Source: an uncultured SAR86 cluster bacterium (GTDB lineage: Bacteria > Pseudomonadota > Gammaproteobacteria > Magnimaribacterales > D2472). From it: DNA of 64,000 nucleotides. The notes under the pieces are model-generated. The model saw only the letters and a program-made list of their open reading frames with translations, had not been told where the DNA came from and ran no database searches. The translations under genes and the position numbers were made by a program. The DNA is taken from assembly GCA_902557965.1 (NCBI GenBank), contig CACECK010000002.1, positions 62,001 through 126,000 on the forward strand, read 5' to 3'. This document shows positions 16,481-50,436 of this stretch, piece by piece; position 1 is the stretch's first letter; each line of letters begins with the position of its first letter.

Positions 16481-18262
16481 ATGTCTATTAATTTAAAAAA
16501 AGTTCCTGATACACCAGGTGTTTATAAGTTCTTTAACAATTCAGAAATTATTTATATTGGCAAAGCCAAAAATTTAAAAAAAAGAGTTTCCACATATTTT
16601 GGAAAATCCTTTAAAGACAGGAAAACCTCTCAAATAAAATTCCTAACAAACAAAATAGAGACGTTCACTACTAAAAATGAGGTTGAAGCATTGCTGCTCG
16701 AACAAATGCTTATTAAAGAAAATAAACCAAAATTTAATATTTTGTTAAGAGATGACAAAACATATCCTTATATCTATTTTTCACTTGATCATGAATTTCC
16801 AGGCGTCTACTCTAAAAGAACAAAAAATGCTGTTGATAAAAAATATTATGGCCCTTTTGTTAGCTCAGAAGCAGTTAAAAAATCTATTAAAGAAATTCAA
16901 AAAATTTTTAAACTTAGAAATTGTAGCGATAATACTTTTGCCAATAGGACCAGACCTTGTATAGAGTTTCAAATGAAAAGATGCTCTGCTCCATGTGTTC
17001 AAAAAATAAATAAATTTGATTACCTTGAAGATATAACAAGTGCAAAGTCATTTCTTTCATCTTCAGATACCAAAAGCATTCAAAGACTTACAAGTGATAT
17101 TGAAAAAGCTGTATCAAAACTTGATTTTGAGAAAGCTGCTGAAATTAGGGATCGCCTTCAGAGACTTAATCTTATTAAGGAAGAACAATCAGTAGTTACT
17201 TTGGCTAATGATGTTGATATTTTTTCAGTCAGCTCTGAATTGAGCTATCTTGGCATATCAATAATAGTCGTAAGAAATGGAAAAATTAGAGGAACTAAAA
17301 CACACTTAATTAAACAAGCACATTTTGACTCTTTTGATGATGTGTATCAAAGTGCTATTTTCAATTTCTATGATAATCAGATAGATATTCCTAAAAAAAT
17401 CCTTTGTGCTTATGCCTTAGACGACAAAAAAATTCTTGAAAAAATGTTCCAAGCAAAGCATAAAAAAGTGGTGCAAATTATTCACTCGCCCAGCAAATCG
17501 ATTAGACCAATATTTAATTTATGCAATTTAAATGCAATACAAGTAATAAAGAATCACACAAGCAAAGAAGACAAATATACATTTGCATTGAATGAGTTAA
17601 GCAATTATTTGGGTATGAAAGATATCTCTAAAGTTGAAGGTTATGATGTGAGCCACATTTCTGGTCATAATGCTGTGGCATCATGTGTTGTTTTCTCAAA
17701 AACAGGCCCTTTAAAAAATAATTATAGATTATTTAATATTCCCAAAAATCTCTCAGGAAATGATACCGGCTCATTGAAACATATTATTGAAAGAAGACTG
17801 AAGTATTATGACGATCCAAAAATAAAACCTGATTTGCTTCTAATAGATGGTGGAAAATCTCAATTGAATTTTGTTAAGAAGGTTATTAAAGAATCGAGGC
17901 ATAATGATCTTAAAGTAATTTCTATTGTCAAAGGAATAAATAGAGTTAGGGCTACCGAAACTATTATTGGCGAAACAGGAGTACTTGAATTAGATAAAAA
18001 CTCAAAATCTTTTTTGCTATTGCAAGAAGTTCGAGACGAATCTCATAGATTTGCAATTCGAGCTCAAAGAAACAAAAAGAGAAAGACTATAAGAAAGTCA
18101 GAGCTAGATAACATAAGCGGTATTGGAAATATTTTAAAAACAAGACTAATAAAAAGATTTAAGAGCATCAGTAAGATTAAAGAAGCCTCATTACAAGAAT
18201 TGATGACTGTTAAAGGTATAAATGAGAAAATAGCATACGAGGTTAAAAAAATACCTAAATGA
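16481..18262 (+). CDS. uvrC: UvrABC system protein C
   Basis: 593 residues. N-terminal GIY-YIG nuclease domain (PGVYKFFNNSEIIYIGKAKNL) for the 3' incision; a Cys cluster (RPCIEFQMKRCSAPC); UVR motif for UvrB binding (LDFEKAAEIRDRLQRL); RNase H-like domain with VEGYDVSHISG and LLIDGGKSQLNF for the 5' incision; C-terminal tandem helix-hairpin-helix (ISGIGN, VKGINE). Nucleotide excision repair. Its stop overlaps pgsA by 4 bp, the conserved uvrC-pgsA pair of gammaproteobacteria. Confidence 0.97.
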   Translation: MSINLKKVPDTPGVYKFFNNSEIIYIGKAKNLKKRVSTYFGKSFKDRKTSQIKFLTNKIETFTTKNEVEALLLEQMLIKENKPKFNILLRDDKTYPYIYFSLDHEFPGVYSKRTKNAVDKKYYGPFVSSEAVKKSIKEIQKIFKLRNCSDNTFANRTRPCIEFQMKRCSAPCVQKINKFDYLEDITSAKSFLSSSDTKSIQRLTSDIEKAVSKLDFEKAAEIRDRLQRLNLIKEEQSVVTLANDVDIFSVSSELSYLGISIIVVRNGKIRGTKTHLIKQAHFDSFDDVYQSAIFNFYDNQIDIPKKILCAYALDDKKILEKMFQAKHKKVVQIIHSPSKSIRPIFNLCNLNAIQVIKNHTSKEDKYTFALNELSNYLGMKDISKVEGYDVSHISGHNAVASCVVFSKTGPLKNNYRLFNIPKNLSGNDTGSLKHIIERRLKYYDDPKIKPDLLLIDGGKSQLNFVKKVIKESRHNDLKVISIVKGINRVRATETIIGETGVLELDKNSKSFLLLQEVRDESHRFAIRAQRNKKRKTIRKSELDNISGIGNILKTRLIKRFKSISKIKEASLQELMTVKGINEKIAYEVKKIPK

Positions 18263-18792
18263 CTAGATTTATAAATTTACTAACAGCTACTAGGATATTG
18301 TTAGCTCCAATTATTTTGTTTTTCTTAATATTTGGAGAATATCTAATATGTACTTTATTATTTTTTCTAGCCGGAATCTCAGATTATTTTGATGGATATT
18401 TAGCAAGAAAATATAATGCAGAATCTCAACTAGGTGAAATTCTTGATCCAATAGCAGATAAGATTCTTGTAGTATTTATATTAGTTGGATTGTCAGTAAA
18501 TTTAAATAGCTATCTTATGGCTGTATTGAGTTCATTTATTATCTCAAGAGAAATAGGAGTCTCAGCTCTAAGGGACTATGCAGCAAGAAATGATATGTCT
18601 AGTAAAACAAAAGTAACTTTTTTAGCAAAATCAAAAACAACTCTTCAATTGTTTACAATTGTACTGTATTTAATTGCATTATCTTTCAATTTAAATTTGT
18701 TAATTATAATTGGAGACATCTCATTGATAGCTGCAACTTTAATAACCATATATACAGGTTATGAATATGCAATTAATATATTTACTAAATGA
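18259..18792 (+). CDS. pgsA: CDP-diacylglycerol-glycerol-3-phosphate 3-phosphatidyltransferase
   Basis: 177-residue polytopic membrane protein with the CDP-alcohol phosphatidyltransferase motif D-G-x2-A-R-x8-G-x3-D-x3-D, seen as FDGYLARKYNAESQLGEILD plus PIADK. The N-terminal INLLTATRILLAP is typical of PgsA. It makes phosphatidylglycerol phosphate at the inner membrane. In E. coli uvrC-pgsA is followed by tRNA-Gly, tRNA-Cys and tRNA-Leu; here a sugar gene overlapping by 4 bp comes first. Confidence 0.95.
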   Translation: MTRFINLLTATRILLAPIILFFLIFGEYLICTLLFFLAGISDYFDGYLARKYNAESQLGEILDPIADKILVVFILVGLSVNLNSYLMAVLSSFIISREIGVSALRDYAARNDMSSKTKVTFLAKSKTTLQLFTIVLYLIALSFNLNLLIIIGDISLIAATLITIYTGYEYAINIFTK

Positions 18793-19559
18793 AAATATCA
18801 ATTGTGAGTGGCGGGTTTGATCCAATTCATTCTGGACACGTAGCATACTTAAAATCTGCTAGAGAAATATCTGACTATTTGATAGTTGCATTGAATAGTG
18901 ATGAATGGCTTATTAATAAAAAGAAAAAAGTATTTATGTCTTTTGAAGAAAGAAAAAATATTTTAATTAACTTTGAATGTGTTGATGAAGTTATGGGATT
19001 TCATGATGATGAAGAAGGAAGTTGTATTGATGCTATTAATAAAATTAAAGATAAATATCCAAATGATGATCTTATATTTTGTAATGGAGGCGATAGAAAT
19101 AAAAACAATATTCCAGAAATGTCCATAAAAAATATTGCTTTTGAATTTGGTGTTGGTGGCAGCGGCAAACAAAACTCTTCTTCGTCGCTTCTTAAAAACT
19201 GGAAGCATGAAAGCGAAAAAAGAGTGTGGGGCTTATTTTATAACTTGTTTGACTCGGATGATGTGAAAGTTAAAGAATTAATCATTAAACCTCATAAAGG
19301 TATGAGTTTTCAAAGACATAAAAAAAGGAATGAAATTTGGCTAGTTTCGAAAGGATCATGCGAAGTTTTATATTCAAGAAATAATCCAGACTTAAAAGAT
19401 AAAATAGTTTTGAATAAATTTGATGAATTCATAATTTCTAAAGGAGATTGGCATCAAATCACAAACCCATATAAAGAGGATTGTCATATTATTGAGATTC
19501 AGTATGGGGATGCAGTAATAGAAGAGGATATTGAAAGATTAAATTATTATGAAAAATAA
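18789..19559 (+). CDS. cytidylyltransferase-cupin fusion protein
   Basis: 256 residues in two domains. Residues 1-130 form an RfaE/TagD-type nucleotidyltransferase: GGFDPIHSGHVAYLKSA has the HxGH signature (HSGH, 14-17), VALNSDEWLINKK follows, and the C-terminal G-G-S-G-K-x-N-S-S-S replaces the usual ISSTxI. Residues about 145-245 form a cupin like that of type II phosphomannose isomerases (RVWGLFYNLF, QRHKKRNEIWLVSKG, GDWHQI). Substrate unknown; activation of a sugar or polyol phosphate with a coupled isomerase or epimerase is plausible. It overlaps pgsA by 4 bp and precedes tRNA-Cys, inside an otherwise conserved core block. Domain calls are firm; function is not. Confidence 0.75.
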   Translation: MKISIVSGGFDPIHSGHVAYLKSAREISDYLIVALNSDEWLINKKKKVFMSFEERKNILINFECVDEVMGFHDDEEGSCIDAINKIKDKYPNDDLIFCNGGDRNKNNIPEMSIKNIAFEFGVGGSGKQNSSSSLLKNWKHESEKRVWGLFYNLFDSDDVKVKELIIKPHKGMSFQRHKKRNEIWLVSKGSCEVLYSRNNPDLKDKIVLNKFDEFIISKGDWHQITNPYKEDCHIIEIQYGDAVIEEDIERLNYYEK

Positions 19560-19616
19560 ATTTCCTAATTTGTACTTTTATTTAATTATTATATGCAATA
19601 CACTCACCGGATATTA

Positions 19617-19690
19617 GGCTGGATGGCAGAGTGGTTATGCAGCGGCCTGCAAAGCCGTTTACGCCGGTTCGATTCCGGCTTCAGCCTCCA
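19617..19690 (+). tRNA. tRNA-Cys (GCA)
   Basis: 74 nt with a complete cloverleaf: acceptor GGCTGGA paired with TTCAGCC, anticodon stem/loop CGGC-CTGCAAA-GCCG giving anticodon GCA, T arm GCCGG-TTCGATT-CCGGC, discriminator T73 as expected for tRNA-Cys, and encoded CCA. The body aligns well with E. coli cysT, including GGTTATG in the D loop. In E. coli it stands between glyW and leuZ downstream of pgsA. Here the next gene's ATG is only 6 nt past the CCA. Confidence 0.97.
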
Positions 19691-19696
19691 AGTATT

Positions 19697-20545
19697 ATGA
19701 AAGTAGGAATTATCGGTTTTGGATTTGTTGGAAAAGCACTTTTTAATGGGCTTGTTGATGGTTTAGATGTCCTGAAAGTAGATCCAAAGCTGAACACTTC
19801 TATTAAGGATCTTTTGAAGTTTAAGCCAGAAGTAATTTTTATTTGCCTTCCAACACCAATGAAAGATGATGGCAGTCAAGATATTTCAATTGTTAAAGAA
19901 GCTTTAGATGATATATCTAAATCTAATATAAATAGTTTGATTGTTCTTAAAAGCACTGTTCATCCTGGCAACATAGAAGAAATTCAAAATATATCACCAG
20001 AAATAATTTACAATCCAGAATTTTTAAGAGAAAAGCATGCAGATGATGATTTCATAAATTCTAAACTGATAATCTTTGGTGGGAAAACAGATGCTACAAA
20101 AAAATTAGCAAAAATCTATTCTAAATACACTAAATGTAAAAATGATGATTACATACACACAGATGCGACTGCAGCATCATTGCTAAAATATACAATAAAT
20201 TCATTTCTTGCTACCAAAGTAATTTTTTTTAATGAAATCAATAACCTCTTTAATCAATCAGGAACTAGAGAAAGTTGGGAAAATTTTACAGACTATATAT
20301 CACTAGACGAAAGAATTGGTGATTCCCACATGATGGTTCCAGGACATGATGGCAGATTAGGTTTTGGTGGCGCATGTTTCCCTAAAGATACTAAAGCAAT
20401 TTTAAAATATGCTGAAACTATAGATATAGACTTAAGCTTAATAAAAAGTGTTATAAGTACTAACAATAAAATAAGAGCAAAGTATAATAGCAACACAGAA
20501 CGAGAAGATGAACAAAATATTAAATATAATGAAGAGGAGATTTAA
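19697..20545 (+). CDS. short UDP-glucose 6-dehydrogenase-like protein
   Basis: 282 residues from the ATG at 19697; the frame stays open into the tRNA but coding should not. N-terminal Rossmann domain (KVGIIGFGFVGKAL; ICLPTPMKDDGS; STVHPG; YNPEFLREKHADDD), central helical domain with LLKYTINSF and the catalytic Cys227 in GFGGACFPKDTKA. These are UDP-glucose dehydrogenase motifs. The C-terminal UDP-binding domain (about 100-150 residues in standard enzymes) is missing and replaced by a short charged tail. Small forms like this occur in some phages. It lies between tRNA-Cys (6 nt upstream) and tRNA-Leu (6 nt downstream) and lacks a ribosome site outside the tRNA. Active enzyme or not is open. 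Confidence 0.8.
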   Translation: MKVGIIGFGFVGKALFNGLVDGLDVLKVDPKLNTSIKDLLKFKPEVIFICLPTPMKDDGSQDISIVKEALDDISKSNINSLIVLKSTVHPGNIEEIQNISPEIIYNPEFLREKHADDDFINSKLIIFGGKTDATKKLAKIYSKYTKCKNDDYIHTDATAASLLKYTINSFLATKVIFFNEINNLFNQSGTRESWENFTDYISLDERIGDSHMMVPGHDGRLGFGGACFPKDTKAILKYAETIDIDLSLIKSVISTNNKIRAKYNSNTEREDEQNIKYNEEEI

Positions 20546-20551
20546 TTTTAA

Positions 20552-20638
20552 GCCCGAGTGGTGGAATTGGTAGACACAAGGGACTTAAAATCCCTCGATA
20601 GAAATATCGTGCCGGTTCAAGTCCGGCCTCGGGTACCA
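20552..20638 (+). tRNA. tRNA-Leu (UAA)
   Basis: 87 nt class II tRNA with long variable arm. Acceptor GCCCGAG pairs with CTCGGGT (one G-U at the end). Anticodon stem/loop AGGGA-CTTAAAA-TCCCT gives anticodon TAA. The variable arm CGATAGAAATATCG is a hairpin; T arm GCCGG-TTCAAGT-CCGGC; discriminator A and encoded CCA. It corresponds to E. coli leuZ, the last member of the glyW-cysT-leuZ cluster after pgsA. It begins 6 nt after the stop of the dehydrogenase gene. Confidence 0.97.
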
Positions 20639-23964: not shown

Positions 23965-24978
23965 ATGAATAATATTGATTTTGTGAATAATAAAAACTGT
24001 CTAATTATTGCAGAGGCGTGCGATAACCACATGGGGTGTATGGATACTGCCATTGAAATGTGCAATCAGTCAAAATTAGCAGGTGCTGATATTGTTAAAT
24101 TTCAACATCATCTTGCAGATGAAGAAATGTTAGAAAATTCTCCGATGTCAGATAATTTTGAAGAACCTTTGTATGATTTTTTAAAAAGAAATGCATTATC
24201 TCTCGATGATCATAAAAAATTAAAGAAACATTGTGAATCGATTGGGATAACATATTTATGCACTCCATTTAGTTATAAGGCGGCACTTGAATTAATGGAG
24301 CTTGATGTTCCTGGGTTCAAAATTGGTTCTGGAGAAATGACAGATATACCATCACTAATTAAAATTGCAGAACTAGGTAAGCCAATGATTTTATCAACAG
24401 GAATGTCCACTTTGGATGAAATTGATGAAACATATAATGCTCTTAAAGATAGATGTGTAAGTTTAGCATTCATGAATTGTGTGAGCGAATACCCACCCGT
24501 TTATGAAGATATAAATTTAAATGTTATAAATATTATGAAAGAAAGATATTCAGAAGCAACAATTGGTCATTCAGATCATACCCCTGATTTATATACTTGC
24601 TTTGCTGCAGTTGCTCTTGGAGCAAAGCTTATAGAAAAACATGTAATACTAGATAAAAAGACACCAGGGCCTGATCAATCTGTTTCAATTGATTTTATGG
24701 AATTAAGAACATTAGTAGATGGAATAAGAAAGATAGAATTATCATCCGGCTCTGAAAAATCTGTCCACGCTAAAGAGAAACAAATAAGAGAATGGGCTTT
24801 TAGAAGTATAGTTTCAATAAAAGATATTAAGTCAGGCGAGAATTTCTCAGAAGAAAATTTATGGACCAAAAGGCCGGGTACTGGAATCCCTTCTGCTGAA
24901 CTACCTAATATTATTGGAAAAGTTGCTAAAAATGATATCAAAGCCAATACTTTACTTAAAGAAGAAGATATAGCTTAA
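23965..24978 (+). CDS. N-acetylneuraminate synthase family protein (NeuB-like)
   Basis: 337 residues. TIM-barrel synthase (about 1-260): IIAEACDNHMGCMDTA, GADIVKFQHH, LCTPFSYKAALEL, FKIGSGEMTDIPSLI, MILSTGMSTLDEI, IGHSDHT and IEKHVILDKKTPGPDQ; then a SAF antifreeze-like domain (about 275-335; GENFSEENLWTKRPGTGI). These are the hallmarks of enzymes that condense PEP with ManNAc or a bacillosamine-like sugar to form sialic, legionaminic or pseudaminic acid. Sequence alone does not choose among them, but no legB/legC/legH or pse genes are nearby, which favours a ManNAc-type substrate. Confidence 0.88.
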   Translation: MNNIDFVNNKNCLIIAEACDNHMGCMDTAIEMCNQSKLAGADIVKFQHHLADEEMLENSPMSDNFEEPLYDFLKRNALSLDDHKKLKKHCESIGITYLCTPFSYKAALELMELDVPGFKIGSGEMTDIPSLIKIAELGKPMILSTGMSTLDEIDETYNALKDRCVSLAFMNCVSEYPPVYEDINLNVINIMKERYSEATIGHSDHTPDLYTCFAAVALGAKLIEKHVILDKKTPGPDQSVSIDFMELRTLVDGIRKIELSSGSEKSVHAKEKQIREWAFRSIVSIKDIKSGENFSEENLWTKRPGTGIPSAELPNIIGKVAKNDIKANTLLKEEDIA

Positions 24979-24985
24979 TTAAATA

Positions 24986-26125
24986 ATGAAGATACTTTTT
25001 GTAACTGGTTCGAGAGGCGAATGGGGATATATAAGACCAATATTAAGGCTTATAGAAAAAGATCCAGATTTAGACTATGAATTGTGTGTAACAAACATGC
25101 ATGTTCTTCCTGGTTTTGGTTCTTCAGAAAATGAAATTTTAAATGATGGTTTTGAAATTAAACATAGAATTTTTATGTCATTAGACTCATATAACCATGT
25201 TTCTCAAGTCAAATCACTCGGTATTTTCTTATCATCGATGGCTGATATCCTATCAAGTAATAAATATGATTTCATCATGTTAGCTGGAGATAGGGGAGAG
25301 CAGTTAATGGGAGCAATTGCAGGTGCATATACTTATATTCCAGTTGGACATATTCAAGCTGGCGAGGTTTCAGGAAATATAGATGGAGCAGCAAGACATG
25401 CTATTGGAAAATTAGCACATGTTCATTTTGCATCTAATACAGACGCTGAAGAAAGACTTATAAAATTAGCAGAAGAGAAATTTAGAGTATTTAACACTGG
25501 TGCACCACAAATAGATGAAATGGTTCAAACGAAAGTTTTAGAACCAGAGTACTTTCAAGATAAATATAATTTTGATTTAACACAGGAATTTTTTCTTGTT
25601 GTTCAACACCCGGTAACGGAAGAATATGATTTAGCTGAAAAGCAAATTAATACTACTTTTAATGTTATTGATATGTACCCTCAAAAGAAAGTTATTATTC
25701 TCCCAAATAATGATGCCGGGTCTTTAGCTATACAGAAAGTTATTAAAGAAAGAAGATCTTTAGATCATATAGTATTTGCAAACTTAAGCAGGATCGAGTA
25801 TTTAACTTTAATGAGAAATTCATTATTAATGATTGGTAATTCCAGCTCTGGTCTTCTTGAAGCTCCAACTTACAATATTCCTGCTATAAATATTGGACGA
25901 AGGCAAGACGGGAGGGTTAGTGGATTAAATGTTATACATGTAGATTTTGAAGAAAATGAAATTAAAAATTCAATTGAAAATGCCCTATCAAAAGAATTTA
26001 ATGATATTCTTAATAAAGAAGGGTTCAATCCATATGGTGATGGCAATTCTTCAGAAAATATATTGAAAATTGTAAAAGATATTTATGATAAAAAAGATTT
26101 AACTATTAAGAAATTAACCTATTAA
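24986..26125 (+). CDS. UDP-N-acetylglucosamine 2-epimerase, hydrolysing (NeuC-like)
   Basis: 379 residues of the GT-B epimerase fold. N-terminus LFVTGSRGEWGYIRPILRLI, then LAGDRGEQLMGAIAGAY, VGHIQAGEVSGNIDGAARHA and the C-terminal IGNSSSGLLEAPTYNIPAINIG are characteristic of NeuC/LegG/SiaA hydrolysing epimerases rather than of the non-hydrolysing WecB. The product would be ManNAc (or the 2,4-diacetamido analogue), the substrate of the NeuB-like synthase 7 bp upstream. Confidence 0.88.
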   Translation: MKILFVTGSRGEWGYIRPILRLIEKDPDLDYELCVTNMHVLPGFGSSENEILNDGFEIKHRIFMSLDSYNHVSQVKSLGIFLSSMADILSSNKYDFIMLAGDRGEQLMGAIAGAYTYIPVGHIQAGEVSGNIDGAARHAIGKLAHVHFASNTDAEERLIKLAEEKFRVFNTGAPQIDEMVQTKVLEPEYFQDKYNFDLTQEFFLVVQHPVTEEYDLAEKQINTTFNVIDMYPQKKVIILPNNDAGSLAIQKVIKERRSLDHIVFANLSRIEYLTLMRNSLLMIGNSSSGLLEAPTYNIPAINIGRRQDGRVSGLNVIHVDFEENEIKNSIENALSKEFNDILNKEGFNPYGDGNSSENILKIVKDIYDKKDLTIKKLTY

Positions 26126-26126
26126 G

Positions 26127-26477
26127 ATGGAAAAAGAACTTACATATTTATTACTTAATGAAAAAGCATCTATAAAAGATGCACTAATGTATATAAAGAA
26201 CAATCAATCAAGACACATCTTTGTAACATCAGATAATGAAAAAGTAATTGGAGTTATTTCTGAAGGAGATATTATATCTGCTTTGCTAAAAGGTTGTGAT
26301 CTTTCTTCAAGAATCTTAGATCTCACGAACTCATCTTTTATATATTTAAGTGAGGTTGATGCGGAGGATAAATCTAAGATTTTATCAATATTAAAGCAGG
26401 GTATATTAATTATTCCTGTTATCGATAATGATATGAAATTAGTTAAAATCATTAATTATTTAGAATATCTAGATTAG
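26127..26477 (+). CDS. stand-alone CBS-domain pair protein
   Basis: 116 residues covering two CBS motifs (about 10-55: ALMYIKNNQSRHIFVT, VIGVISEGDIISALL; about 60-115: ILSILKQGILIIPVI). CBS pairs bind adenosine ligands and usually regulate an attached enzyme. In legionaminic acid loci CBS pairs are fused to the sugar-activating nucleotidyltransferase (PtmE type); here the pair is a separate gene one base after neuC and two before the alcohol dehydrogenase. It may regulate a neighbour in trans. No catalytic domain is present. Confidence 0.8.
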   Translation: MEKELTYLLLNEKASIKDALMYIKNNQSRHIFVTSDNEKVIGVISEGDIISALLKGCDLSSRILDLTNSSFIYLSEVDAEDKSKILSILKQGILIIPVIDNDMKLVKIINYLEYLD

Positions 26478-26479
26478 CA

Positions 26480-27610
26480 ATGAATTTTATTCTTTCAAAC
26501 AATCTTTTTGCTGAAAATGGAATTTTGGAAAGGATTCATACTATTATTAAAGAGGATGGGTATAGTTTTCCATTATGTATGGTTGATGAAGGCTTCTCTT
26601 CAAGCGAGTACTGGAATACGATCAAAAAAAACTTAGAAAAAGAATTCAAAGAATTTAATATTATAGAGGTTTCTGGAAAAGAAGAACCATCCTATGATTC
26701 TCTTAGAACTTATTTAGATGAATCAAAAAATTTCAAAGTTGATGTAATTTTGGGTATTGGTGGAGGAAGTTGCATGGATGTTGCTAAAGCTGTTGGAGGA
26801 CTGCTAAACAATGAGGGTGATCCAATAGAATATCGTGGTTTCGATAAAGTAGTTAATGGCGGCATACCAGTCTATCTCTCACCAACAACAGCCGGCACTG
26901 GGAGCGAGGCATCTTTTAATGCATCTTTAGTGGATAAAGATTCTAATAAGAAGCTTGGAATAAATGGAATCAATATGTTTGCAAAAAAATCTTTTCTCGA
27001 TGGAAAAACAACTGTTTCATGCCCAAGAATGCCATCAGTTGGTGCTTCGGTAGATGCTATTGTTCATTCCATGGAAGGTTATATATGTAATAATTCAAAT
27101 CTTTTTTCAGATATGTATGCTGAAACATCCTTAAAACTTATGATTAATTCAATATTAGACTTAAATTCAGAATTACCTTCTCTAGAACATCGTTTAAATC
27201 TTCTTAAAGGAGCATATCTAGCAGGAGTTGTTCAAATGAATTCAGGGTCTGGTGTTGCTGCAGCAATTTCTTATCCATTAAGTGTTTATTATAAAGTTCC
27301 TCATGGTATAGGTGGGGGTATGTTTGTTTTAGGCATTGCAAGATTTAATGAAGAAAAGGGTTTTAAAAAGTATGAAAATCTATATAGATTAATCGAGGAA
27401 CCGTTTGCTGAAGATTTTCTTTCCCATATGGAAATATTATTTTCTAAACTTGATGTACCGAACAATCTAAGTACTTTTGGTATAAGGGTTTCAGAAAAGG
27501 AACATATTTGTGAAGTCATGAAAACTCAACAACCTGCCTTTGATCAAAATCCTTATAAATTCTCAGCTGAGAAAGATTTTCCAAATTTTATAGGAAATTA
27601 TTTAAGTTAA
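26480..27610 (+). CDS. iron-containing alcohol dehydrogenase family, KdnB-like
   Basis: 376 residues, group III metal-dependent ADH fold: nucleotide motif GIGGGSCMDVAKAV (94-107), SPTTAGTGSEAS, and metal ligands Asp192 and His196 in VDAIVHSMEGY and His275 in VPHGIGGG. The usual third ligand and catalytic His (HxxxH, 14 and 10 residues before the PHG His) read Ala261 and Tyr265. The form NSGSGVAAAISYPL...VPHG resembles, as I recall, the KdnB subfamily, which oxidises the terminal hydroxyl of Kdo in Shewanella before amination. Immediately followed by a KdnA-like aminotransferase. Role here: probable oxidation of a sugar hydroxyl in the nonulosonate cassette. Confidence 0.72.
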   Translation: MNFILSNNLFAENGILERIHTIIKEDGYSFPLCMVDEGFSSSEYWNTIKKNLEKEFKEFNIIEVSGKEEPSYDSLRTYLDESKNFKVDVILGIGGGSCMDVAKAVGGLLNNEGDPIEYRGFDKVVNGGIPVYLSPTTAGTGSEASFNASLVDKDSNKKLGINGINMFAKKSFLDGKTTVSCPRMPSVGASVDAIVHSMEGYICNNSNLFSDMYAETSLKLMINSILDLNSELPSLEHRLNLLKGAYLAGVVQMNSGSGVAAAISYPLSVYYKVPHGIGGGMFVLGIARFNEEKGFKKYENLYRLIEEPFAEDFLSHMEILFSKLDVPNNLSTFGIRVSEKEHICEVMKTQQPAFDQNPYKFSAEKDFPNFIGNYLS

Positions 27611-27630
27611 CTAAAATATAGGAGAAAGAT

Positions 27631-28800
27631 ATGCCTGGTTGGGAATTAATAGATGATAAAGAAAAAGAATCTATTTTAGAAATTTTTGATAAATCAAATG
27701 GCGTAATGTTTGCGCATGGCTTTGATGATAGAAGAAATAACATATTTAGGGTAAGAGATTTTGAAAAAAAGTTTGCTGAAAAATTTGGAGTAAAACATTG
27801 CCTTGCAACCACATCTGGAACAATGGCCCAATATATCGCTATGAAGGCTTTAGGTATAGGTCCTGGCGATGAGGTAATTACACAAGCATTTACATTCGTT
27901 GCTACAGTTGAAACTATTATACAAATTGGCGCTTCACCTATTTTAATCGAATCCGATGAGACATTTAATATGGATTTAGAAAAATTAGAAGATCATATCA
28001 ATGAAAGAACTAAACTCATAATACCTGTTCAGATGCTAGGAAATCAGGTAGATATGAAAAAATTAAAGAAGATATCTGATAAATATGATATTCCAGTAAT
28101 GGAAGATGCATGCGAGGCTCTTGGAGCAAGTTATGATGGTTCTTTCGTTGGAACTCATGGAGATATTGGAATATTTAGTTTAGATTTTGCAAAGACTATT
28201 ACAACAGGCGAGGGTGGAATAATCATCACAGATAATGATGAAATAGCAAAATATATTAGAGAGTTCCATGATCATGGTCATGAAAGTAATCCAAAGGTAC
28301 CCAGAGGGAGAGATACTCGTTCTATTATGGGGTTAAACTTGAGAATGTCGGAACTTCAAGCTGCAGTAGGCATAGCCCAATTAGATAAATTAGATCATAT
28401 TATTAATAGAAATAGACACAATAAATCATTATTAAAGAAATTAATTAAAGATAATGAAAATATTAAATTTAGAAAAATTATTGATGAAGATCAAGAGTTA
28501 GCAGATACATTGATCTTTTATTTTGATAGTGTCGACAAAGCTTCTCAATTTGTAACACAATATAATGAATCAGGCTATTTTACAAAAAATTTACCAGATG
28601 CAATTGATTGGCATTTTTCAGGCACATGGAATCATATGTTTGTAGATGATAAAAATTATAAGGAAACATGGAGCAATCAATGGCCAATAACAGATGACCT
28701 ATTGAGAAGATCTATATCGATACCTATTCTAGTTAATCACACTGATGAAGAAATAAAAGAGCAAGCAAAGATAATCAATAATATATTGGAACTAATGTAA
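27631..28800 (+). CDS. DegT/DnrJ/EryC1 aminotransferase, KdnA-like
   Basis: 389-residue PLP aminotransferase of the sugar type. TSGTMAQYIAMKALGIGPGD binds the cofactor phosphate, MEDACEALG holds the PLP-pyridine Asp159, and Lys188 in DFAKTITTGEGG is the Schiff-base lysine. The N-terminus MPGWELIDDKEKESI and the DHGHE stretch recall KdnA of Shewanella, which aminates 8-oxo-Kdo made by KdnB to give 8-amino-Kdo. The tandem ADH plus aminotransferase therefore suggests replacement of a sugar hydroxyl by an amine. A clear ribosome site (AGGAGAAAG) precedes the ATG. Confidence 0.8.
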   Translation: MPGWELIDDKEKESILEIFDKSNGVMFAHGFDDRRNNIFRVRDFEKKFAEKFGVKHCLATTSGTMAQYIAMKALGIGPGDEVITQAFTFVATVETIIQIGASPILIESDETFNMDLEKLEDHINERTKLIIPVQMLGNQVDMKKLKKISDKYDIPVMEDACEALGASYDGSFVGTHGDIGIFSLDFAKTITTGEGGIIITDNDEIAKYIREFHDHGHESNPKVPRGRDTRSIMGLNLRMSELQAAVGIAQLDKLDHIINRNRHNKSLLKKLIKDNENIKFRKIIDEDQELADTLIFYFDSVDKASQFVTQYNESGYFTKNLPDAIDWHFSGTWNHMFVDDKNYKETWSNQWPITDDLLRRSISIPILVNHTDEEIKEQAKIINNILELM

Positions 28801-28803
28801 AAA

Positions 28804-29496
28804 GTGAAAATATTAGGAATAATTCCTGCAAGAAAAGGCTCAAAAGGTATTAAAAATAAAAATATAATTAGTATAGGCAATATGCCATTAATTGAATATA
28901 CGTTTTCATTTACTGCGAACATAAATAAAATTGATAAAATAATTTTATCGACTGATTCTGACGAAATAATAAAAATAGCAGGAAGATATACCCATATCGA
29001 TATACCATTTACTAGACCTGATTATTTATGTACTGATGAAGCAAACGTTAGCGATGTAGCAATTCATGCTTTGGAGGAATGCAATAAGATTTATAAAACA
29101 GAATATACTCACATTGCATTATTTCAACCAACCTCGCCTTTTCGTATTAAAAAAGAAATAGATGATTCAATAAATAAACTTATTAAGAAAAAATATGATT
29201 CTATTTTTTCTGTAAATGAGGTGATACATCATCCAAGCGAATATATAACAATAAATGACGATAAATTTAATCTTATCTTGCCCCCAAAATCAGATAGCGA
29301 ACAAAGACAGTTATATGATTCTGTATATTTTATAAACGGATCTTTTTATATGTGCTCAGTAGATTTTTTAAAAAAAAATAAATCATTTTTAACAGCTAAC
29401 TCTAAGCCAATAATTTTTTCAAAAAACTCATCTTTTGATATAGATGACGATTTTGATTTAATGCTTGCTAGAAATAGCATACAAAAAGATGAATAG
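28804..29496 (+). CDS. CMP-nonulosonate synthetase (NeuA-like acylneuraminate cytidylyltransferase)
   Basis: 230 residues. IIPARKGSKGIKNKNI is the NTP-binding signature of CMP-sialic acid synthetases; LSTDSDEI, RPDYLCTDEANVSDV and ALFQPTSPFR follow the family pattern. Only the catalytic domain is present. It activates the C9 sugar acid as CMP sugar for transfer. The start is a GTG at 28804, three bases after the aminotransferase stop, without an alternative ATG before the motif. Its 3' end overlaps the flippase gene by 8 bp. Confidence 0.88.
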   Translation: MKILGIIPARKGSKGIKNKNIISIGNMPLIEYTFSFTANINKIDKIILSTDSDEIIKIAGRYTHIDIPFTRPDYLCTDEANVSDVAIHALEECNKIYKTEYTHIALFQPTSPFRIKKEIDDSINKLIKKKYDSIFSVNEVIHHPSEYITINDDKFNLILPPKSDSEQRQLYDSVYFINGSFYMCSVDFLKKNKSFLTANSKPIIFSKNSSFDIDDDFDLMLARNSIQKDE

Positions 29497-35499: not shown

Positions 35500-36330
35500 A
35501 TGAGAGTCGCTCTGTTAACAGGTCACCATCCTAGGCATTTTTATGTTGCAGATCAGATTGGTAAAATTGTTGATGAGCTATTGGTAGTGACATGTGCAAT
35601 GGGTCTTAATCCAGCAGTTGTTGGTGATCATGGAGATGTAAAAGATGATGCAATATCATGGTTTAATGAGAGGTACATAACTGAAAAAGCTTATTTTAAT
35701 TTCAATGGCTTTTCATCAGCAACAGGAACAGTCTTTCCTGTGGGCCCAAAAGAAATAAACAATTATGAGGTATATAAAGTAACTAAAAACTTTAATCCTG
35801 ATGTAATTGTTGTATATGGAACATCGATTCTAAAAGGAGATATACTTAATGTAACTCCAAAAATAATAAATTTTCATCTAGGGATGTCTCCTTACTATAA
35901 TGGAGCTGGAACAAATTGGTGGCCAATGTATAACAACGAATATGAATTTATTGGAACTACCGTTCATTATCTAGATGCTGGTGTTGACACTGGAGAAATT
36001 ATTGGACAATGTAGATCAAAAATAAATCCTGGTGATTCTCCGCATGACATTGGTAACAAGAATATTATTGCTGGTTGTAATTTAGTAACTGAAATATTAC
36101 CTATTCTCAAAGAAAAACTTATTAAACCAGTAAAGCAATGGGAAGTTTCAGGAAGACCAGTATATAAAATGAAAGAATTTACAGACTCTAAGGTAAAAGA
36201 ACTTTCGGAAAGAGTCAGCAAAGGAGAAATTAAAAAATTTGTAGAAAAGAATTTTTGGGGAGATTATAAAATGGTAGATTTTAATGCAGGAGACCCCAAA
36301 TTGATGTCTAGTAAAATATTATTACCATAG
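35500..36330 (+). CDS. formyltransferase-family protein (probable sugar N-formyltransferase)
   Basis: 276 residues with the methionyl-tRNA formyltransferase catalytic core: Asn-x-His in INFHLGMSPYYNGAGTNWW and the Asp of TTVHYLDAGVDTGEI, which complete the Asn-His-Asp triad, plus IVVYGTSIL before it. It lacks the C-terminal tRNA-binding domain, and a housekeeping Fmt would not lie here. Relatives such as VioF and WlaRD-type enzymes N-formylate amino sugars with N10-formyl-tetrahydrofolate. A primary amine made by the aminotransferase at 27631 is an attractive acceptor, but this is inference. Confidence 0.78.
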   Translation: MRVALLTGHHPRHFYVADQIGKIVDELLVVTCAMGLNPAVVGDHGDVKDDAISWFNERYITEKAYFNFNGFSSATGTVFPVGPKEINNYEVYKVTKNFNPDVIVVYGTSILKGDILNVTPKIINFHLGMSPYYNGAGTNWWPMYNNEYEFIGTTVHYLDAGVDTGEIIGQCRSKINPGDSPHDIGNKNIIAGCNLVTEILPILKEKLIKPVKQWEVSGRPVYKMKEFTDSKVKELSERVSKGEIKKFVEKNFWGDYKMVDFNAGDPKLMSSKILLP

Positions 36331-37250: not shown

Positions 37251-38228
37251 GTGAGTAATTACAGTCACTCTGGTACCAGTTTTGCAATCATTGATGTTCC
37301 CTTAAGTTTATTGGCCCTAAGTTCAAGCATTGCAAATATTGATGAAATTGATATTGATATTTCAGCATTGACTATTTCTTTAAATGATAATAAAAATCTA
37401 AAAGACCTCTCTAAAACCCTTCTTGAAGGAACAAATTATCAGTTTCATACTAAAAAAAGTTTATATTGGCTGATAAAAAAAATATTTTTTAGCTATAAGA
37501 CAAGATTGAATAATTTATTTGTTACTGATTTAGGAATTAAAAATAAGATATTAATTATTCTAATGAGATATGATAATTTATACATACTTGATGATGGCTT
37601 GGCTTCAATTTTGAGAGAGGAAAAAGCGGTTAAGTTTATTTTATCTTTATCAAGGTCAATTTTTAATCTAAATGGAAGAAGAATTATAAATTATCTATCT
37701 TTGTATAAAAAAATCTATCCATTTCAACCAGGATACTTTAATTTGTGCCTATTTAAGAAAAAAAAACGCAACGTATTTAAAAATAAATGTATATATGTAT
37801 GTTCGGCACCAACAATGGATGGTATGAGCATGAATGATGAAAATATTTTAACTGAAAAAGTAAAAAGATTTTCTGACTCTATAAAAAAAGAATTATTAAT
37901 AATTCCTCACAGACTTGAAGAGGAGAAGTTTAGTAAAAAATATAAATTCTCAGAATATGTTTATAAAATTGATTCAATTTTTGAAGAATTCTACTTAAAT
38001 TCTGAATTTATGAACTGTTCTTTTATTACTCTCTATTCAGGTGCAATTCTTTGTGTGGATGATTTACATAAAAAGTATTACATCAGAGACTACTTTAAGC
38101 CCCGAATCAAAAGAACGTTTATTAATAAGATATTCTTTAAAAGAATATGGGATATTAATATTCTTTATGATTATTTTGATGAATGTAACGTTAAAAAACT
38201 TTACGATAATGATAAAAATTTAAAATAA
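37251..38228 (+). CDS. unrecognised protein with sialyltransferase-like motifs
   Basis: 325 residues, no family I can name with certainty. Three features suggest a bacterial sialyltransferase of the GT52/polysialyltransferase type: Asp-Asp-Gly in LYILDDGLASIL (114-116), matching the (D/E)(D/E)G general-base motif; PHR in LLIIPHRLEE (219-221), resembling the CMP-binding HP motif; and YSG near the C-terminus (FITLYSGAILC, 262-264), where those enzymes have a Ser motif. No signal peptide; cytoplasmic and basic. The start is a GTG two bases after the deacetylase. A CMP-nonulosonate donor is predicted from this island, so such a transferase is needed. Inference from motifs and context only. Confidence 0.5.
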   Translation: MSNYSHSGTSFAIIDVPLSLLALSSSIANIDEIDIDISALTISLNDNKNLKDLSKTLLEGTNYQFHTKKSLYWLIKKIFFSYKTRLNNLFVTDLGIKNKILIILMRYDNLYILDDGLASILREEKAVKFILSLSRSIFNLNGRRIINYLSLYKKIYPFQPGYFNLCLFKKKKRNVFKNKCIYVCSAPTMDGMSMNDENILTEKVKRFSDSIKKELLIIPHRLEEEKFSKKYKFSEYVYKIDSIFEEFYLNSEFMNCSFITLYSGAILCVDDLHKKYYIRDYFKPRIKRTFINKIFFKRIWDINILYDYFDECNVKKLYDNDKNLK

Positions 38229-49923: not shown

Positions 49924-50436
49924 TTATGAACCTGAGCTAGTAGTAGTAGTAGTTGTTGTTGTTGTTGTACTTGATGAGCTACTTGTCGTAGTAGTTGGTT
50001 CAGTAGTTGTTGTTGTAGTCGTTTCGTCCTCAGTAGTAGTTGTAGCACTAGGAGTAGTAGTAGTTGTAGTACTAGGAGTAGTAGTAGTAGTTGTAGTACT
50101 AGGAGTAGTAGTAGTTGTAGTACTAGGAGTAGTAGACGTTGTAGTTGTAGTCGGAGCCGGTGTTGGCGCTGGAGGTGGAGCTGGAGTAGGAGCTGGAGCT
50201 GGAGCTTGAGCACCTTCAGCATCGTCACTAGCAGCTATAAGCGCAGCAGCAGCAGCAACTGCAGCCGCAATCGCACCAGGATCTAAATTAGATCCCTCTT
50301 CTTTGTCTGTTACTTCTGAAGAATCAGATGAGTCAGTAGTTTCTTGTGCAATCATATCTGTTGCAAAAAAACCATAAAAGAAACTGAATACAGTTCCCCA
50401 TAAAACTTTAAATTTTGATTTGATAAATTTAGCCAT
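49924..50436 (-). CDS. secreted Thr-rich low-complexity protein, GfcA/YjbE-like
   Basis: 170 residues. Basic N-terminus and hydrophobic segment (VLWGTVFSFFYGFFATDMIAQ) form a probable signal peptide; then an acidic Ser/Thr stretch, an Ala-rich hydrophobic helix (AIAAAVAAAAALIAAS, 55-70), an Ala-Pro repeat (about 77-95) and a tail of about 75 residues that is nearly all Thr and Ser. This architecture (signal peptide, Ala-rich helix, Thr-rich tail) recalls E. coli GfcA and YjbE, first genes of the loci that also encode GfcD/YjbH and a Wza-like protein, which stand next door here. Strong ribosome site GAGG before the ATG. Function unknown in any organism. Confidence 0.75.
   Translation of the reverse strand: MAKFIKSKFKVLWGTVFSFFYGFFATDMIAQETTDSSDSSEVTDKEEGSNLDPGAIAAAVAAAAALIAASDDAEGAQAPAPAPTPAPPPAPTPAPTTTTTSTTPSTTTTTTPSTTTTTTTPSTTTTTTPSATTTTEDETTTTTTTEPTTTTSSSSSTTTTTTTTTTSSGS
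50041..50139 (-). repeat. 24/27-bp tandem repeats in the Thr-rich gene
   Basis: Four copies of a unit beginning TGTAGTACTAGGAGTAGTAG on the plus strand: 50041-50064, 50065-50091 (one extra triplet), 50092-50115 and 50116-50139. They encode TTTTTTPST-type peptide units. AGT/TGT triplet runs on both sides make this a slippage-prone microsatellite that changes length in frame. Confidence 0.9.

Follow-up and report, generated by a model that had tools for sequence, protein, structure and literature searches.

At positions 23,965 to 29,496 of the window (the whole stretch of 64,000 nucleotides analysed here, from an uncultured SAR86 cluster bacterium), an alcohol dehydrogenase gene and an aminotransferase gene are found among sialic-type sugar genes, which raises the question of what sugar is made there and what this pair contributes to it. 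An earlier note had proposed that the two enzymes resemble KdnB and KdnA of Shewanella and that they would place an amine at the end of a Neu5Ac-like acid. The reading reached here, to which about an even chance is given, is that the six genes of the cassette form a pathway to a sialic-type nonulosonic acid, activated with CMP and bearing an additional amino group, most likely a 9-amino-9-deoxy sugar. The pathway assignment is fairly well supported; the carbon that is aminated and the substrate are presumed.

The cassette and its surroundings

The cassette consists of six genes on the forward strand, in the order NeuB-NeuC-CBS-ADH-aminotransferase-NeuA, with intergenic gaps of 7, 1, 2, 20 and 3 bases. 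These small gaps, together with the catalytic motifs found in NeuB, NeuC, NeuA and the aminotransferase, indicate an operon-like gene set and rule out chance. In this order NeuB, NeuC and NeuA do flank the dehydrogenase-aminotransferase pair, as had been stated in the earlier note, and the five genes named there are all complete open reading frames with strong family matches, though the sixth, the CBS-domain gene between NeuC and the dehydrogenase, had been overlooked.

The first gene (23,965-24,978) encodes a NeuB-type nonulosonic acid synthase of 337 amino acids, P0001, with a C-terminal SAF domain (3e-10). It matches the NeuB family PF03102 at 244 bits (2e-72), and its best PDB match is the N-acetylneuraminate synthase SiaC/NeuB at 248 bits, with PseI at 167 bits; it scores 326 bits against TIGR03569 (cut-off 400) and 251 bits against the PseI model (cut-off 340). 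The 379 AA product of the second gene (24,986-26,125), P0002, is a NeuC-type hydrolysing UDP-GlcNAc 2-epimerase that passes the NCBIfam model TIGR03568 (391 bits, cut-off 236); its best PDB match is a UDP-diNAcBac 2-epimerase at 219 bits, followed by human GNE at 176 bits. The last gene (28,804-29,496) begins with GTG and encodes the 230 AA protein P0005, a NeuA/PseF-type CMP-nonulosonate cytidylyltransferase matching PF02348 at 70 bits (2.6e-19) and the PseF model at 121 bits, under the cut-off of 206; its nearest PDB entries are CMP-NeuNAc synthetases. Judged by sequence, NeuB and NeuA are clear members of their families, though they lie under the equivalog cut-offs. The 116 AA CBS-domain protein (26,127-26,477; PF00571, 5e-11) probably has a regulatory role, since CBS pairs occur in the nonulosonic acid clusters of relatives. 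There, DegT aminotransferases (L147:9432-10847, L148:7977-9413 and L149:7728-9164) carry an N-terminal CBS pair, and a CBS pair also opens another ORF, ahead of a nucleotidyltransferase-like region.

Upstream of the cassette lie GalE, two UDP-sugar dehydrogenase-like genes and a chain-length-like protein, and downstream a flippase, a glycosyltransferase, an amidotransferase, methyltransferases, a formyltransferase and a deacetylase; GalE, the flippase, the glycosyltransferase and the other neighbours place the cassette in a surface-glycan cluster. One ORF of this cluster (37,251-38,225) contains LDDG and IPHR stretches that by eye recall bacterial sialyltransferase motifs; it gave no Pfam, NCBIfam, PHROG or meaningful PDB match. 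The cluster is preceded by uvrC- and pgsA-like genes, tRNA-Cys and tRNA-Leu (16,481-20,638), and in the relatives L148-L150 the glycan genes likewise lie beside uvrC/pgsA-like genes, so that this neighbourhood suggests a shared variable site. Elsewhere in the window, on the reverse strand (49,924-50,436), a 170 AA ORF ends in a long Thr/Pro/Ser-rich low-complexity tail.

An aminotransferase of the KdnA family

The fifth gene (27,631-28,800) encodes P0004, a DegT aminotransferase of 389 amino acids (PF01041, 297 bits) with K188 as the PLP lysine. Among PDB sequences KdnA (5K8B) matches it best, with 255 bits as against 177 for the runner-up. When its AlphaFold model (pLDDT 81) was searched with Foldseek, 5K8B was again at the top (E 4e-36, TM 0.89), the others having TM-scores of about 0.82. 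In a tree of 78 DegT proteins, with 12 LegC and 10 PseC reference rows picked by NCBIfam cut-off, the KdnA family including P0004 forms a 100/100 clade on a long stem, apart from both LegC and PseC; the KdnA proteins of Shewanella-like Gammaproteobacteria genomes are nearly identical to 5K8B. P0004 scores 209 and 213 bits against the LegC and PseC models, where the cut-offs are 420 and 424, and the AU test rejects a constrained grouping with PseC (p 4e-70) and with LegC (p 2e-6). The KdnA-like character given to this enzyme in the earlier note thus agrees with sequence, predicted fold and tree, and the LegC/PseC clustering that the note had named as speaking against its reading is rejected by tree and AU tests. 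Placement of P0004 in the KdnA family, as predicted from its sequence and modelled fold, holds up.

Within the family there are two branches. That of Shewanella KdnA adjoins KdsB/WaaA, the Kdo8N setting, while the branch of P0004 adjoins NeuB and/or CMP-sugar synthetases and is found in the present genome, a Pelagibacteraceae genome, two other Gammaproteobacteria, Chlorobiaceae and one viral contig. On the Kdo8N branch, KdnB is adjacent in 9 of 10 loci, KdsB and/or WaaA are present in 6 and NeuB in none, several of these loci being short. Forcing P0004 into the Kdo8N clade (KdnA genes beside KdsB/WaaA) was rejected with a p-AU of 1e-6, a value that is optimistic because this grouping was chosen after the first tree had been seen. 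The Kdo and nonulosonic neighbourhood labels require one change on the KdnA-family tree, and 0 of 500 shuffles were as low, with L040 labelled Kdo from a KdsB about 3 kb off its KdnA and L041 and L042 labelled nonulosonic from NeuA alone.

The gene sets on the P0004 branch vary. L025 and L037 lack NeuC and combine KdnB and KdnA with a glycosyltransferase, NeuB and an SpsF-like cytidylyltransferase. In the Pelagibacteraceae single cell (L038), KdnA is followed by a formyltransferase, NeuD and NeuB; NeuA and another NeuB lie close by, and KdnA has no ADH beside it. In the two Chlorobiaceae (L041 and L042), NeuA, Fe-ADH and KdnA are together and NeuB is elsewhere in the genome. Given the lack of NeuC in L025 and L037 and the distant NeuB of L041 and L042, the loci may not all act on the same sugar. 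Another Chlorobiaceae locus (L157) has NeuD-like, formyltransferase-like and NeuB genes side by side, the same type of trio as in L038. The viral member of the branch (L118:1-1140) lies at the end of contig IMGVR_UViG_3300036859_001058, by terminase- and portal-like genes, and its locus stops at the contig edge. Plasmid and annotated phage searches with P0004 gave no matches, nor did scans of viral contigs with the Fe-ADH.

The DegT genes of genus and order relatives are only distantly related to P0004 (31-40%), so that an orthologous cassette was not found among them. Two loci of the window's genus (L151:173-4197 and L152:8670-12676) contain NeuB (plus NeuA in L152), a Gfo/Idh-like oxidoreductase and a different DegT aminotransferase, and no dehydratase was seen beside these NeuB genes; perhaps they represent another oxidation-amination route to nonulosonic acids.

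A divergent Fe-containing alcohol dehydrogenase

Just upstream of P0004 (26,480-27,610) is the gene for P0003, a 376 AA Fe-containing alcohol dehydrogenase (PF00465/PF25137; 99 bits against PF00465) and a candidate sugar alcohol-to-aldehyde oxidase. It matches KdnB (5K8C) at 65 bits, rank 25 by sequence, as compared with 296 bits for the KdnB of L037 and 602 for that of L027. By fold, 5K8C is at rank 49, and the nearest structures are methanol dehydrogenase, sulfoacetaldehyde reductase and lactaldehyde reductase. In an Fe-ADH tree of small sample, where P0003 is a long branch, it falls outside the KdnB clade and groups (98/99) with ADHs of Chlorobiaceae, all of which adjoin aminotransferases of the P0004 branch.

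The metal-site residues of P0003 are D192, H196, A261 and H275, with Ala261 replacing the His that is the third ligand. All KdnB rows have D, H, H and H here, and the other Fe-ADH references also keep the third metal-binding His; the Fe-ADHs of the two Chlorobiaceae (L041:8789-9916 and L042:8852-9979) have Asn at this position. The GGGSxxD motif is retained in P0003. Membership of the KdnB subfamily (FeADH3, cd08184) is ruled out by the bit score and rank, the tree position and the missing ligand. The KdnB-like dehydrogenase of the earlier note therefore stands at the level of the family, type III Fe-ADH, but not at that of the subfamily, since it is outside the KdnB clade and lacks one of the four metal ligands. 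The non-KdnB type and Ala261 together make the activity of P0003 doubtful, or its mechanism altered. The use of a non-KdnB Fe-ADH in the role of KdnB is not unique to the window, as a KdnA-family locus with KdsB (L044) also has one.

Predicted product and alternatives

In the proposed pathway, NeuC would convert UDP-GlcNAc to ManNAc, and NeuB would join ManNAc (or a derivative) with phosphoenolpyruvate to give a nine-carbon acid. The Fe-ADH would oxidise the terminal CH2OH to an aldehyde, which the KdnA-family aminotransferase, using PLP and an amino-acid donor, would convert to an amine; NeuA would add CMP, and the product would go into the surface polysaccharide of the surrounding glycan cluster. 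One possibility is that oxidation and amination take place instead at C6 of ManNAc, before NeuB, which would give the same 9-amino product. The ADH and aminotransferase presumably act in sequence, their substrate would be a nonulosonic acid or its precursor, and C9 is suggested as the site of amination by analogy with the action of KdnB/KdnA on C8 of Kdo. The substrate of KdnA is a terminal aldehyde, and those of most relatives of the Fe-ADH are primary alcohols. The later fate of the amine is likewise presumed; a weak but possible guess is that the Formyl_trans_N protein encoded downstream (35,500-36,330, forward strand; PF00551, 4e-14) N-acylates it, a formyltransferase also being found 3' of the KdnA-like gene in L038. 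More broadly, and tentatively, with somewhat less than an even chance, the P0004 branch may act as a general terminal-amination module for nonulosonic acids, one whose products would be natural, as yet undescribed 9-amino acids of the sialic type.

It is unlikely that the cassette is a plain Neu5Ac pathway, in which the ADH would be inactive or regulatory and the aminotransferase would work on another sugar of the cluster. The three core enzymes are those of the N-acetylneuraminic acid pathway and are enough for CMP-Neu5Ac, NeuC is over its curated cut-off, and P0003 is missing one metal ligand. The cassette differs from that pathway in having two extra enzymes and a CBS protein, and its NeuB scores 326 bits where the cut-off is 400. 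Against the plain reading, P0003 retains D192, H196, H275 and the GGGSxxD motif, the ADH and aminotransferase genes are intact and locked in the operon, and a similar ADH accompanies the P0004-branch aminotransferase in Chlorobiaceae.

Amination of the nonulosonic acid at C8, by way of an 8-keto intermediate, is also improbable, given the terminal aldehyde used by KdnA, the primary alcohols used by most Fe-ADH relatives (for the nearest folds of P0003, see above) and the C9 hydroxyl that a Neu5Ac-type acid retains. Such an intermediate is what the 8-amino-3,5,7,8,9-pentadeoxynonulosonic acid described from the Flexibacter maritimus O-antigen (PMC3210612) would need. This sugar, also of marine bacterial origin, resembles the predicted product in that a nonulosonic acid bears an additional amine on its side chain, but it is 9-deoxy and has its amine at C8. 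Chemistry at C8 also exists in the formation of 8-epimers, but there the SDR enzyme EpaB is used (PMC12053666).

There is only a small chance that Kdo8N for the lipopolysaccharide core is what the two enzymes produce and that they lie in a NeuB cassette by coincidence. Kdo8N, which occurs in Shewanella (PMC3210612), is known in marine bacteria, and KdsB is present in the genome, separate from the cassette, so that Kdo is probably made. The pair resembles KdnB/KdnA in that an Fe-ADH and a KdnA-family aminotransferase are adjacent, with KdnA the nearest solved protein to P0004. Yet P0004 lies outside the Kdo8N clade, on its own branch (the forced grouping above), and has no KdsB/WaaA next to it; NeuB, NeuC and NeuA take their place, the Fe-ADH belongs to a different subfamily and its metal site is altered, the pair is tightly packed between NeuC and NeuA, and other members of the P0004 branch also adjoin NeuB or CMP-sugar synthetases.

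The genome (1.05 Mb in 22 contigs, 81.5% complete) was examined by family searches. It has one NeuB, and its only other DegT-family match is an IscS-like protein at 28 bits. No LegC or PseC was found elsewhere in it. The extended SDRs that exceed the Pfam cut-off, two in number, reach about 105 bits against LegB (cut-off 475) and under 50 against PseB (cut-off 408). The steps of legionaminic/pseudaminic synthesis that the earlier note had reported missing from the cassette are indeed not there (no 4,6-dehydratase, LegC/PseC or acetyltransferase), and no LegC/PseC or 4,6-dehydratase was found elsewhere in the genome, absences that are not final at this level of completeness. A pathway of that type, with P0004 catalysing the C4 amination and the genes not found lying in unsequenced parts, is very unlikely: it shares NeuB/NeuC/NeuA-family enzymes and a DegT aminotransferase with the cassette, NeuC-family epimerases also serve UDP-diNAcBac (the best solved relative of P0002 being such an enzyme), the genome is incomplete and same-order relatives have other nonulosonic acid clusters, but the DegT protein is in another clade, with LegC and PseC placements rejected by the trees, no LegC, PseC, LegB or PseB was found that exceeds its cut-off, and a 4,6-dehydratase would strip the C6 hydroxyl, leaving the ADH without a clear role.

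Neither a natural 9-amino nonulosonic acid nor a KdnA-NeuB pathway was found in the open-licence literature searched, and to this extent the earlier view that no such pathway had been described stands, but a nonulosonic acid with an extra amine, the 8-amino acid, was already known. The cassette is therefore taken as a variation of nonulosonic acid biosynthesis with a KdnA-family enzyme, whose product is predicted.

If this is right, terminal oxidation and amination would add to the means by which bacteria vary their sialic-type acids, and the Kdo8N enzymes would belong to a larger family whose modules aminate ulosonic acids at the terminal position. The cassette would also be an enzyme source for 9-amino sialic acids, which so far have been chemical tools. 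For these abundant ocean bacteria, an extra and possibly charged amine on a surface sugar would matter for phage binding and for grazing.
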